Assembly: GCA_944324385.1 (NCBI GenBank)
Contig: CALUWD010000004.1
Coordinates: 1 to 64,000, forward strand
Length of the DNA stretch: 64,000 nt
Origin: Candidatus Gastranaerophilales bacterium
GTDB lineage: Bacteria; Cyanobacteriota; Vampirovibrionia; Gastranaerophilales; Gastranaerophilaceae
Reading direction: 5' to 3'
A model generated the notes under the pieces. That model had not been told where the DNA came from and searched no databases. It was given only the letters and a program-made list of their open reading frames with translations. The position numbers and the translations under genes were made by a program. Numbering within the stretch: position 1 is the first letter of the stretch; every line of letters starts with the position of its first letter. Of this stretch, positions 12,621-52,819 are shown piece by piece.

Positions 12621-14648
12621 ATGAAAGTCCAAAATATTAAGCAAACGGCATATAATAGCCAAAGAATTAACAATGAAAATGAAAACAACACATCTTTTAG
12701 GGGTGCTACAGATGCTCTTGTTAGTTTTTGGGAAGGTGTAGACAGGGGTGGCCTTGCTGCAAGCTTTACTATACAAGACATGCTTGGTACAAATATACCA
12801 AGGACTTGGGCTGCAAAAGACGTTGGCAAAGATTTAACCGGAAAAAACAACTGGGGTGCGGTATTAGAAAACGGATTGCGCGAGTTTTTAACAGGTCCGA
12901 GCATGTTTGTTGTCCCTGGGGGTGTTTTGTATGCTTCAACTAAATTTGGAGCTAAGTCTAATGCGGTTCCTGTTCAAACAATAAAAGATTTTGCTGAAAT
13001 TATAAAAAAATCAAATATTGACACCACAAGTAAAGAAGCGTTTAAAAAATCATTTTACGGAAGTGTTTTAGAACGTGTTTTTTCTAATTTTGATGGCATA
13101 AAAGATATTGAAAACCTTGCACAAAAAGGCATTGATATTGACGATTATATTGCGCAAATTTTGAAAATGGAATCCGCAAAGAAAAAAGGCCTTCTAAATA
13201 ACATTAAAAATGCTGCGATGCCGGATTCAAAAGAAGAAATTTTAGAGGGTATTATAAAGAAATTTGTTACTGATAAAAAAGCAAATACTACTGGTTATCC
13301 AAATTTCTTAAAAGCTTTAATTACTGACACTAGTGCTGATAAAGCTGCTAAATACGAAGTTAAAATTGGTGATTTGATTGACCGAATGATTAAATATTCT
13401 GATGATTTGTATGAATCGTTAGGGAAGCAAAAAGGTAGCCTTGATGATATTCTTGAAAGTTTTACAAAATCAAGAATGGGCTCAAGATTTGCTACAAATA
13501 TTTTAATGGGTGTGTTCACAGCAGCTGCAATGTGGTTTATACCTAGAATTTATACTGTTAATAAAACAAATCCTGAAACAGACCCTGTAAGGCAAAAAGC
13601 AAGCGAACTCAAGGGTGATAAAAATAATCAAACAAACGGCCAAGTTAACTTTAGTGGTGGCGGCATAAGCAAGCTTATGAATGACATTGGAGAAAAAGTT
13701 AACCCTGGGCAAAATACGTGGTTATCTAAACACGCTTCATCTCTTGAAAGTAATTGGATTAACGTAGCTAGACCAATATTTTATACATTAATTACTTGTT
13801 TTACTTTGATTCCACGCCTTATTCAGTCTACAAAAAGAGATATTGAAAGTTCTAAGAAAAATGGCGGTCCTGTTCAATGGGATGAAACTTCAAATATTCT
13901 AAGGCGTGATATTACAACAATTCTTACCATACTTTTTGCAATGGAAGGTATGGGTGCCGGTATGGGGCTCCTTGGCTCTAAAAAAAGCGGTATTGTTCTA
14001 ACAAGCGACATTTTAAGAAAAGAAGACAGCTTCTTTAAAAAATTCATTAAGATATTTAATCCTGAAGGTGGTGTGCAGGTTCTTGGAAAAGCTGAAAACA
14101 CCGCACAAATGTCTAATTTTGAAAATTTAGACCAAGTTATAAGATTCTTTGAGAAAAACGATGAAAACAAAGGTAACTTATATAAACTATTGCACATTGA
14201 TGCAAAAGCCAAAAATAAAGAAGGAAAAGAAGCCTCAACTTTTTATAACGCAGCTAAAAAATTGTTTGGCGATGTTATAGAAAATGAAAAACTCAAAGCT
14301 GTAGATTTAAGAAATTATATAGCAAATAACAAATTAAATGAAAATGATGTAAAAGAATTCTTGGGAATTTTAAATAATACAAAGAAAAATCCTCTTTTGA
14401 ATTTTGCAAATAAATTAAATGCTATATTTCAAACAGTTTCACTAGGAATAGTAACAGGATTCTTGGGTTTTGGTTTGCCAAAAATAAACGATGCTATTAT
14501 CAAGAAAAAATATTTGAAAAACGATAATACCTTGCAGCCAAAATATTCTGATCCAAATATGCCAATTCCCGCGTATAGTATCTTGAATAACTTAAAACCA
14601 AATGAAAAACAAATATATCAGTATTTCTTAGGAAATAAAAATGTATAA
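12621..14648 (+). CDS. Large protein of unknown function with N-terminal F-x-G tag
   Basis: 675 residues, no family recognised. A polar N-terminus reaches NTSFRG at residues 23-28, followed by helical sequence. Hydrophobic stretches occur near residues 95-110 (FLTGPSMFVVPGGVLYA), 295-312 (ATNILMGVFTAAAMWFI), 385-400, 430-455 (ITTILTILFAMEGMGAGMG) and 610-630, which could be membrane helices. A second F-x-G (QVNFSGGG) sits near residue 343 in the polar stretch between hydrophobic parts. There is no classical signal peptide. The gene at 50474 has the same design. Start: ATG with GAGG about five bases upstream. It is monocistronic, with its own promoter and a shared terminator. Confidence 0.85.
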   Translation: MKVQNIKQTAYNSQRINNENENNTSFRGATDALVSFWEGVDRGGLAASFTIQDMLGTNIPRTWAAKDVGKDLTGKNNWGAVLENGLREFLTGPSMFVVPGGVLYASTKFGAKSNAVPVQTIKDFAEIIKKSNIDTTSKEAFKKSFYGSVLERVFSNFDGIKDIENLAQKGIDIDDYIAQILKMESAKKKGLLNNIKNAAMPDSKEEILEGIIKKFVTDKKANTTGYPNFLKALITDTSADKAAKYEVKIGDLIDRMIKYSDDLYESLGKQKGSLDDILESFTKSRMGSRFATNILMGVFTAAAMWFIPRIYTVNKTNPETDPVRQKASELKGDKNNQTNGQVNFSGGGISKLMNDIGEKVNPGQNTWLSKHASSLESNWINVARPIFYTLITCFTLIPRLIQSTKRDIESSKKNGGPVQWDETSNILRRDITTILTILFAMEGMGAGMGLLGSKKSGIVLTSDILRKEDSFFKKFIKIFNPEGGVQVLGKAENTAQMSNFENLDQVIRFFEKNDENKGNLYKLLHIDAKAKNKEGKEASTFYNAAKKLFGDVIENEKLKAVDLRNYIANNKLNENDVKEFLGILNNTKKNPLLNFANKLNAIFQTVSLGIVTGFLGFGLPKINDAIIKKKYLKNDNTLQPKYSDPNMPIPAYSILNNLKPNEKQIYQYFLGNKNV

Positions 14649-14703: not shown

Positions 14704-15150
14704 TTAATTTTCAAATTTTTTTCTAAGTTCAATTTTATCTGAATATTTTTGATTAATTTCGCCTGATTTGTAAGCACCATCATTGTTTATTTGATATGCT
14801 GTAATGCCTGCAATTGCTGCTCCTGCCACAGTTAGCAGTTTTGCTGAGCCTGGTAGATTTTTAAACTTTGTTGCTGCTTTTTTAAGAGCCTCTGTTGCTT
14901 TTGGTGCAAGTTCCTTAAAAGTTTCACTGTTTGCTACTTTGCTCATTAAGTTGCTTACTACCTTATTTGCACTTTTTGATTTCACTGCCGCAGCTGTACC
15001 TGCGCCTATAGCAAGTGTTGCACCTGCTGTTTTTAAGTTTGTTTTAACCGCGTTTGTCATTTGTTCCTTAGTATTACCAAGTCTTTCTGATAAATTTGCG
15101 TTAGGGTTGTATATCAAGCTTTTTGGTACTGTTGTAGCATTTACTATCAT
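14704..15150 (-). CDS. Small Ala/Lys-rich protein of unknown function
   Basis: 148 residues, no family recognised. Two small-residue hydrophobic stretches (AGATLAIGAGTAAAV near 43-56 and LLTVAGAAIAGITAYQI near 104-120) flank a basic helical region (ALKKAATKFKNL). The shape suggests a membrane-associated helical protein, but glycine-zipper-like segments are also seen in soluble proteins. AAAAGGAG before the ATG supports the start. The neighbouring F-x-G gene is convergent and shares its terminator. Confidence 0.75.
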   Translation of the reverse strand: MIVNATTVPKSLIYNPNANLSERLGNTKEQMTNAVKTNLKTAGATLAIGAGTAAAVKSKSANKVVSNLMSKVANSETFKELAPKATEALKKAATKFKNLPGSAKLLTVAGAAIAGITAYQINNDGAYKSGEINQKYSDKIELRKKFEN

Positions 15151-26024: not shown

Positions 26025-26450
26025 TTATATCCTTTTGTTTACAAGTATTCCTGCCGGATTTTTAAGATTATCTACAAAGACTGAAAGTTTGTTAGGTGTA
26101 ATTTCTTGTACTACAACACCTTGCTGTTTATTGTATATTACTAGAGAATTTCTATTTTCATCTGGTTTAATTTCATACAAATCTTTATTTGTAAGGTCTA
26201 TTTTTTCATATTCGGCAATTTCTGTTTCTTCTTGAGGAGTTTCATCTTCCTTGGAGGAAGAACTGTCACCGCCAAAAAACGATGTATTTTCTTTATCATC
26301 GGTATCAATGGCACTTTTTTTGTCCAGCGAGTTTACACTCCTTGAACCTTCTCCAAGTCTTGCCTTAAAGTCAGAGTTTATGGCATTTTCTTTTGATGTG
26401 TTTTCGGGAGTTATTCTGAGTTGATTTACTGATATTCCGTCAAGTCCCAT
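26025..26450 (-). CDS. FlaG-like protein
   Basis: 141 residues. The C-terminal 60 residues (NSLVIYNKQQGVVVQEITPNKLSVFVDNL, then GILVNKRI) match the pattern of the FlaG domain: a strand, an x-I-P/T-P turn, a helix and a final strand. The first 90 residues are polar and low in complexity, and contain NTSFFGG at 56-62, close to the F-x-G tag of the large protein at 12621. Being first in the fliS-fliD operon supports the FlaG call. The start has AAAGG upstream, with TATAAT at 26465-26470. Confidence 0.65.
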   Translation of the reverse strand: MGLDGISVNQLRITPENTSKENAINSDFKARLGEGSRSVNSLDKKSAIDTDDKENTSFFGGDSSSSKEDETPQEETEIAEYEKIDLTNKDLYEIKPDENRNSLVIYNKQQGVVVQEITPNKLSVFVDNLKNPAGILVNKRI

Positions 26451-50473: not shown

Positions 50474-52819
50474 ATGGATTTGAAGGTTATAAATTCAAAT
50501 ATTACCAAACAAAAACAAAGCATTAACAAAAAAAATGCCTCTTATTTTCCACCTTTAAATTATAAAAATCAAGAAATTAATTTTACAGGGCTAGGTTCAA
50601 CATTATCAACTGTAGGAAATAAGCTAACAAAAAGTTCTGTTCACTTTAGTGATTACAATATTAGAAAAGACCAGCTGAATAAGCTTTTTGGTGATGAGTT
50701 TTCCATAATGGAAAAAGAGTTCCAAGAGTTTTCTCAGGGTTTTTTGAAATTCGACAAAAAAATAATATTTGATAAAAATGGCGGGGTGACTTTTGTAGAG
50801 GATGGTATCCTGCCAAAATTTTTAAAAAGTGCAGCTTATCCTTTTAAAGACTTATGGCTTGATGTTGCAAGCTGGGCTTTAAGAGGTGCTTCAAGACTAG
50901 AAAAAGTCCCTGTCTTATCTGATGGTGCAAAAAATTTACTAAATTCAAATGTATTACAAAAAAGAGCTAATGCAAAAAACGCTGAAGAAATTTTTTGCAT
51001 TATGCAAGGAGCTTTTTCAGACATTGCAAGCAATGAAAAAACTTTTAACAAACTTGCAAATAGTGCCATGCAGCACATAAGACCAAAGACAGCCCAAGCT
51101 TTATCTGGTGATTTTTCTGACACGCCTGAAACAGTTTTGCACAATATGCTACATGCTGCAAGTAGTGTCAAGGGTAACTACAAAACAGCTGACGAGAGAA
51201 CTATTAATAGAATATGCACAGGGCTTGTAAGTGCTACAATGGCAGGAATTGATTTTTATAATATTTCAAGAATGCAAAATGATGATGACGCGCTTGCAAA
51301 AAAATCTCAAAAGAAAAGATTTAAACAGGAAAGCTCAAGGATTTTAATGAGCGCTGGCATGACATTTTTGACACTAGGGGCGCTGTCTAAGTATGCAAAT
51401 TCGAATAAATATATTGCTTTATTTACAATTGCAGGTACAACTTTAATTTCTGAGATTTTATCAAGACTTATGAGTGGTATGCCTTTGCGCCCATTGAAGC
51501 CTGAAGAAGCCAAGGATTTTTCTTATCACAAACATAGCAAGAAAAACAAAAACGCTGACGTAAAAAATAATGAGCCAAGCCAATTAAAAACGGATAATCA
51601 AACTCAGATAATTAAAGACATTCCAGATGAATTTGGAAAATTTGTGATAAATAAAAAGCCTGACGAAAATCAAACCCAGACAAAATTTAAGGGTTCAAAA
51701 GAGTTAAAGAAAAATGATGATAATGGTACTCCTCTAAATGCTCAAAACCTGCTAAAGGCTTTTGGTGTGTTGCTGGCTGCAGGTCTTGGTGTTTGTTTTG
51801 CAAGAAGCAGAAATGAAAAATTTAACTCCCTGCTGAAAAATATAAGAGCAGGCATGGATAATGCCGTTGATTTATTAACTAAAAAAGATTACCTTGTGCC
51901 ACTTGATAAAGCAAGGGACATGCTTAGTAATATTTCAAATAATTTTGGCTTAACTGATTTTTCAAGAAAATTATCGACCGAGCTTGAAAGTGATAAATAT
52001 GCAAAAATTATTAAGCAGGTTGATGGTAAAAATGTTGAATATGTTAAATTGGGCAGAGTTGACAAGAAATTTGTAGCGCCAATTATTAAAGCCGTAACTT
52101 ACCCGTTTGGTTTTGTTTGGGGTGTTATAAGATTCCCAACCAAAATTATGCGCGGACTGTTTGAAAAAGAAGCCTCAAAAGATTTATCTAAAATCAATTC
52201 TGAAGATTTAATGAGCCTTTATAAAATATACGACAAGGCTAAAAATAAACTTGATGCAGGCAAAATTACGCCTGATGAATTTAGTAAGCTGATTAAGCGA
52301 AAGACAATTATTGCTGCAGAAAACAAAACAGGTAAGTCTACTTATAAAAACTCTTCTTTAGCGGCAATTTCAAGACCTCTGGTTACTTTAATTGCAAGCT
52401 ATTTCTTTGTAAATGACTATAGAAATGAGGTTTTAATAACATCTCATGGCGAAGATGTGGAAGGCGCAAATGCTGTTGCTAAAGAGCGTGTAATGCATAA
52501 GGTCTCTAATTTCTTCTTTAATTCACTACTTATGAACTTGTTTAATTCAGTATTTGAGTCAGCTTACCATGGTAGCTTAATTGGTGCAGGTGCAGTTGCT
52601 GCTGCAACTGAGTTCACAAATGAAAATCTAATACGTAAATCAATTGGTGTACCAACCAAGAAAATGTCGCGCGAAGAAATTCAAGAACATGACAGACAAA
52701 ATCTTGAACGCAACGACTTCTGGGGCAAATATTTCCGCTTTATGTCTAAATTAACTGGCAAAAAGACAATTTCGCAAAAAGTTCAAGATCAGGAAAAGAA
52801 AAAGGCTCAAAAAGCATAA
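50474..52819 (+). CDS. Large protein of unknown function with N-terminal F-x-G tag (second copy of the design)
   Basis: 781 residues, no family recognised. A polar Lys/Asn-rich N-terminus leads to INFTG at 35-39, then long helical sequence. Hydrophobic stretches lie near 280-325 (ILMSAGMTFLTLGALS, YIALFTIAGTTLI), 430-445 (LLKAFGVLLAAGLGVCFA), 535-550 and 690-720 (FFNSLLMNLF, LIGAGAVAAATEF). A second tag (QTKFKGSKE) sits near residue 403 in the polar linker. The overall plan matches the 675-residue protein at 12621, though sequence likeness is low by eye. There is no signal peptide. The phosphohexomutase gene follows 54 bp later with its own promoter. Confidence 0.85.
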   Translation: MDLKVINSNITKQKQSINKKNASYFPPLNYKNQEINFTGLGSTLSTVGNKLTKSSVHFSDYNIRKDQLNKLFGDEFSIMEKEFQEFSQGFLKFDKKIIFDKNGGVTFVEDGILPKFLKSAAYPFKDLWLDVASWALRGASRLEKVPVLSDGAKNLLNSNVLQKRANAKNAEEIFCIMQGAFSDIASNEKTFNKLANSAMQHIRPKTAQALSGDFSDTPETVLHNMLHAASSVKGNYKTADERTINRICTGLVSATMAGIDFYNISRMQNDDDALAKKSQKKRFKQESSRILMSAGMTFLTLGALSKYANSNKYIALFTIAGTTLISEILSRLMSGMPLRPLKPEEAKDFSYHKHSKKNKNADVKNNEPSQLKTDNQTQIIKDIPDEFGKFVINKKPDENQTQTKFKGSKELKKNDDNGTPLNAQNLLKAFGVLLAAGLGVCFARSRNEKFNSLLKNIRAGMDNAVDLLTKKDYLVPLDKARDMLSNISNNFGLTDFSRKLSTELESDKYAKIIKQVDGKNVEYVKLGRVDKKFVAPIIKAVTYPFGFVWGVIRFPTKIMRGLFEKEASKDLSKINSEDLMSLYKIYDKAKNKLDAGKITPDEFSKLIKRKTIIAAENKTGKSTYKNSSLAAISRPLVTLIASYFFVNDYRNEVLITSHGEDVEGANAVAKERVMHKVSNFFFNSLLMNLFNSVFESAYHGSLIGAGAVAAATEFTNENLIRKSIGVPTKKMSREEIQEHDRQNLERNDFWGKYFRFMSKLTGKKTISQKVQDQEKKKAQKA

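Follow-up and report, generated by a model that had tools for sequence, protein, structure and literature searches.

The window, i.e. the whole 64,000-nucleotide stretch analysed here (contig CALUWD010000004.1, assembly GCA_944324385.1), comes from a genome of 42 contigs and 1.69 Mb that we take to belong to Candidatus Gastranaerophilales, an order of gut bacteria related to Cyanobacteria, widespread and little cultured. It carries two large genes, for proteins of 675 and 781 residues (families 1 and 2), each with two copies of a short tag of the F-x-G type, one close to the N-terminus and one internal. Both open reading frames (ORFs) and all four tags lie where a first-pass annotation of the sequence had placed them (window coordinates):

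12621-14648, plus strand: 675-residue protein, family 1, two tagged modules, without known domain
12687-12704, plus strand: family 1 tag 1, NTSFRG, residues 23-28, where the disordered leader meets the first helix (predicted from residue 27)
12699-13610, plus strand: family 1 module 1, residues 27-330
13641-13658, plus strand: family 1 tag 2, QVNFSG, residues 341-346, in a disordered linker
13659-14519, plus strand: family 1 module 2, residues 347-633
50474-52819, plus strand: 781-residue protein, family 2, with an internal duplication, without known domain
50576-50590, plus strand: family 2 tag 1, INFTG, residues 35-39
50801-51553, plus strand: family 2 repeat 1, residues 110-360, homologous to repeat 2
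51680-51694, plus strand: family 2 tag 2, TKFKG, residues 403-407, in the inter-repeat linker
52061-52816, plus strand: family 2 repeat 2, residues 530-781, homologous to repeat 1

Both proteins had been described as unknowns, and this holds: neither the 675-residue nor the 781-residue protein has a Pfam or NCBIfam match above the curated cut-off or a PDB fold match at E <= 0.001, and a viral library gave no match for the former. The two families are order-wide, being found in 49 (family 1) and 50 (family 2) of the 58 sampled relatives, and no profile similarity is detected between them. Among 194 sampled genomes of the class, those listed with family 2 all belong to the order. When genome contigs were scanned with family 2, 78 loci came up. 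Most carry the label Candidatus Gastranaerophilales, Galligastranaerophilus, Melainabacteria or Cyanobacteria; one is labelled Muribaculaceae and the others are unclassified.

In the AlphaFold2 models the tags of both proteins lie inside or on the border of disordered segments. For the 675-residue protein (mean pLDDT 74) the values fall below 50 at residues 1-26 and 332-369, with helical bodies between; for the 781-residue protein (mean pLDDT 68) both tags are inside the disordered segments 1-44 and 364-421, again with helical bodies between. In both families the tag reads [TPVI]-[SNA]-F-x-G and closes a disordered leader. Only M1, F26 and P318 are conserved at 90% or more in the alignment of 34 family 1 proteins, F26 being the phenylalanine of tag 1. 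The occurrence of F.G (phenylalanine, any residue, glycine) was compared with 2000 shuffles of each aligned leader or linker segment, leaving out F.G strings elsewhere in the body of the 675-residue protein (SFYG at 144, NFDG at 156). It is present in 23/28 leaders (2.7 expected) and 20/20 linkers of fused members (3.0 expected) of family 1, and in 21/24 leaders (3.8 expected) and 19/27 linkers (3.3 expected) of family 2, figures that are not to be read as probabilities because the aligned rows are related and hence not independent. Outside the genus the corresponding counts are 10/15, 7/7, 9/10 and 6/13, against 1.2 to 1.5 expected. The rest of the leader has diverged around the conserved tag; the positions directly following its glycine vary, and in some members FG-x or F-x-S replaces F-x-G.

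The two tags of family 1 belong to different modules. Module 1 is a gene of its own in G016, G026, G033, G038, G040, G045 and others, and in several relatives two adjacent ORFs match residues about 16-327 and 347-658 of the 675-residue protein. The internal tag is the counterpart of the leader at the N-terminus of the downstream gene where the two genes are separate, as seen in two of these second ORFs, which have a leader and tag of their own: L020 (MQINKIQAPMLQKPQNNNKSVAFKG, beginning MQINKIQ and running to KSVAFKG) and L024 (MKVSNSTQFNNSMLAAQNKKVSFGAG, beginning MKVSN and running to KKVSFGAG). The second ORF of L019 has no leader tag, and that of L029 is ambiguous. Judged from these sequences, the 675-residue protein stems from the fusion of two genes kept apart in distant relatives. 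A profile comparison of its halves is no more than suggestive of homology (69%, E 4.5e-5); no similarity was found when the split forms of the modules were compared alone. In the case of family 2, repeats 1 and 2 are homologous with a hhalign probability of 98.9% (E 2.7e-17). On alignment evidence, then, each module has its own tag, acquired via fusion in family 1 and via internal duplication in family 2, and each protein consequently has two. The first-pass annotation had seen one shared two-tag design; the rule of one tag per module stands, but a single architecture does not. The source genome also encodes a tagged paralogue of the 781-residue protein (C5:86987-89059, equivalent to L171:16987-19059), copies of which contain internal stop codons in several relatives.

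The same annotation had proposed that the tag is conserved on otherwise dissimilar proteins and specific to the lineage. A 13-residue tag model was trained only on families 1 and 2 and then run on other proteins. In the source genome, matches at T >= 10 occur in 17/745 N-termini and 10/1796 body windows (odds ratio 4.2, p 2.7e-4), and at T >= 12 there are 10 N-terminal and 3 body matches (p 5e-4). In the pooled Gastranaerophilales samples, with both training families left out, the counts are 29/1604 and 24/4861 (odds ratio 3.7, p 2.8e-6). The class outgroup, a single genome (G057), shows no enrichment at most thresholds and 2-4 N-terminal matches at high ones, one of them an ABC-type ATPase. 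With the restriction of family 2 to the order, this supports both proposals. The regular expression suggested at first is itself enriched only weakly in the source genome (12/600 N-termini vs 24/2803 body windows, p 0.017), and single relatives show no enrichment of it; the full 13-residue motif is needed. In three other genomes the F-x-G tag co-occurs with a start element, M-[KRQ]-[IV]-x-x-[IV] (odds ratio 19, p 1e-7, for a pattern picked post hoc). The leaders of 23 tagged proteins, picked by eye, are rich in Asn (2.6x) and Ser (1.7x) and poor in Asp (0.38x), Glu (0.25x) and Leu (0.36x) relative to other N-termini, and by the same kind of judgement have no Sec signal. A literature search, mostly outside subscription journals, found no description of the tag in Gastranaerophilales. 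The motif is real, undescribed and apparently lineage-restricted, and occurs on unrelated proteins.

From the rule-based excess in the source genome (25/748 N-termini vs 0.9% per body window) the number of tagged proteins is estimated at a few dozen per genome. Many are without domains; those that can be recognised include a GH13 enzyme, a nucleotidyltransferase, an FtsH-like AAA/M41 protein, an AAA protein, a DSHCT helicase and, in G024, a HAD hydrolase. The tagged FtsH-like protein, helicase and GH13 enzyme have housekeeping paralogues in the same genome, which are without such a leader. N-extended GH13 members elsewhere in the order keep KISFGR, ILSFGR or similar before the first domain. 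The leader of the tagged nucleotidyltransferase (L164:150-2270 and L285-L295), 72 residues long, is 55-84% identical in 11 members of the genus, while the bodies behind it are very different (no similarity in that search, yet both match PF00483), which is consistent with leader exchange or recombination. A tagged protein of 271 residues (L064:7904-8719) has an AvrB_AvrC match above the cut-off (E 5e-11) over 75 residues (189-263), and another has a weak SseC match (1e-3, below the cut-off); most tagged proteins have no effector or translocator domain. Within the window, NTSFFG is present in a FlaG-like ORF, as had been pointed out, and is regarded as a candidate tag:

26271-26288, minus strand: candidate tag NTSFFG, residues 55-60 of the FlaG-like ORF 26025-26450 (minus strand), motif score 12.3

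FHIPEP, which forms the export gate in flagella and injectisomes, is found in 57/57 order members, and 53 of these have a second FlhA-like gate, the four others being 75-88% complete genomes. The second type matches the FHIPEP family with E about 1e-215, the flagellar type with about 1e-265. All 14 order members without flagellin have the second gate; the same 14 and two others lack the P-ring gene FlgI, and the flagellin-less members have one strong FlhB match where the flagellated ones mostly have two. In a class-wide search the second gate is present in 96/98 order members listed, 78-99% identical to the copy of the source genome; it was not seen in the class outgroup and is absent from the large-genome family f8 of the class. 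Homologues of FliH, FliF, FliE, a transglycosylase, FliR, FliQ, FliP, FliO and FliN/SctQ lie near the gate of the source genome and on another contig. The apparatus as typed comprises an FlhA/SctV-like gate, FlhB/SctU, FliF/SctJ, FliE, FliH/SctL, FliP/Q/R/O and FliN/SctQ, at the following places in the source genome (G000):

C2:19267-21357, minus strand, with C2:21.4-25.9 kb, C3:61010-62035 and C8:34.6-38.6 kb: second apparatus

The reading we favour, at a probability of roughly 40%, is that the tag is the core of a sorting leader feeding this second type III apparatus. The leader would often begin with the start element and continue as a disordered, Asn/Ser/Lys-rich, acid-poor stretch to [VITP]-[SNA]-F-x-G, directly before the folded module. 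It would direct the protein away from the ordinary cytosolic pool, and the route would be the flagellar-type apparatus found in nearly every order genome tested. In that case the two window proteins may be membrane proteins that are exported or resemble translocators, and the tagged enzymes may be exported metabolic effectors. A more elaborate version, in which a filament-less, flagellum-derived type III delivery system operates across the order and is fed by dozens of proteins with F-x-G leaders, including duplicated enzymes and two-module membrane proteins, seems rather doubtful to us. Export by the flagellum only is rejected, since the tags persist in flagellin-less genomes (tagged family 1 members occur in G015, G016, G020, G024, G026 and G028).

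Several observations speak against export through the second apparatus. Internal tags have been retained long after fusion or duplication, when a purely N-terminal export signal needs none, and the tagged set includes several enzymes that depend on ATP (AAA, helicase). The enrichment is significant in the source genome and in G024 but not in G020 or G045 alone (in the latter no N-terminal enrichment is seen), although tests on single relatives are underpowered. The second gate also occurs in other families of the class (60-68% identity), which lack family 2. The apparatus looks flagellar rather than injectisome-like (FliE, FliO, the C-terminal domain of FliF), and no translocon was identified for it. 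Finally, tagged genes are not concentrated within 15 kb of it (3/76 vs 18/691 elsewhere, p 0.35, for three gene clusters); linkage of substrate genes to a type III apparatus is common but not obligatory.

The internal tags suit docking or processing at least as well as export. As a short linear docking motif, the tag would tether membrane proteins and enzymes to one intracellular hub, e.g. a membrane-associated body or a storage-polysaccharide granule. Its recurrence inside proteins, one per module and conserved there, is what a binding motif rather than a leader would show, and ATP-dependent and alpha-glucan or sugar-nucleotide enzymes (GH13, nucleotidyltransferase) are sensible in the cytosol. 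No hub or compartment was identified, however, and docking does not require the N-terminal preference, the start element or the acid-poor composition; we hold it possible but on the unlikely side. Targeting to a glycogen granule as the sole explanation was set aside, as the tagged set includes a helicase, AAA proteins, a HAD hydrolase and membrane proteins. Alternatively, F-x-G may be a protease site where the leader is cleaved off and proteins with two modules are divided, fused genes then yielding the products of split ones. The position of the tag at the leader-module junction in both proteins, before each module, and the coexistence of split and fused family 1 forms agree with this, but the variable residues after the glycine, the FG-x or F-x-S variants and the failure to identify a protease speak against it; we think it improbable. 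We give slightly less weight still to the tag being a remnant of a domain edge (such as a helix cap or first strand) that serves no shared function, its likeness stemming from the frequency of F.G. Bare F.G in a polar context is indeed not enriched at N-termini in most samples, and the regular expression proposed at first is only weakly so; on the other hand, the bodies of families 1 and 2 are unrelated, a model trained on both picks N-terminal tags on other proteins, and the tags of both predicted structures sit in or beside disorder, as against the ordinary fold that the annotation had named as the opposite outcome.

The tagged leaders can be compared with known systems. Like the N-terminal type III export signals of flagella and injectisomes, the leaders are N-terminal, disordered, Asn/Ser-rich and Asp/Glu/Leu-poor, and every order member tested has type III export gates; a conserved sequence motif of the F-x-G kind is not known from those signals, and the Gastranaerophilales tag differs in being also internal, in genes unlinked to the apparatus, with export here hypothetical. 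In Chlamydiae, glycogen enzymes are secreted by type III. Both cases concern a bacterium that has a type III apparatus and whose alpha-glucan or sugar-nucleotide enzymes carry an additional leader at the N-terminus, whereas lineage, leader motif and apparatus type differ and secretion would here be hypothetical. Encapsulin and microcompartment targeting peptides, the short sequences by which cargo is docked and loaded into bacterial compartments, share with the tag a short conserved peptide, a disordered linker and many unrelated cargoes, but the motif is another one and the tagged set here includes multi-helix membrane proteins. Organelle transit peptides are acid-poor, Ser-rich N-terminal extensions on one paralogue only, a pattern repeated here, although no organelle is known and the tag is also internal.

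If the tag is a shared address label, many 'hypothetical proteins' become one system testable as a group. Published work explains the partial sets of flagellar genes in these genomes as genome reduction or flagellum loss (PMC3787301, PMC4451040). The favoured reading, if true, would recast these sets as a conserved export machine persisting without a flagellum; the literature search mentioned above found no second type III apparatus described in this group.

A third FlhA-related protein, soluble and of 481 residues, is present in most order members (L174:6024-7469, in the source genome C8:26024-27469), and comprises the FlhA/SctV cytoplasmic domain alone, behind a different N-terminus. In the window, the gene of the 675-residue protein is met convergently by a 148-residue ORF (14704-15150, minus strand), which has no F-x-G and is Gly/Ala-rich and hydrophobic, with an Asn-rich start.
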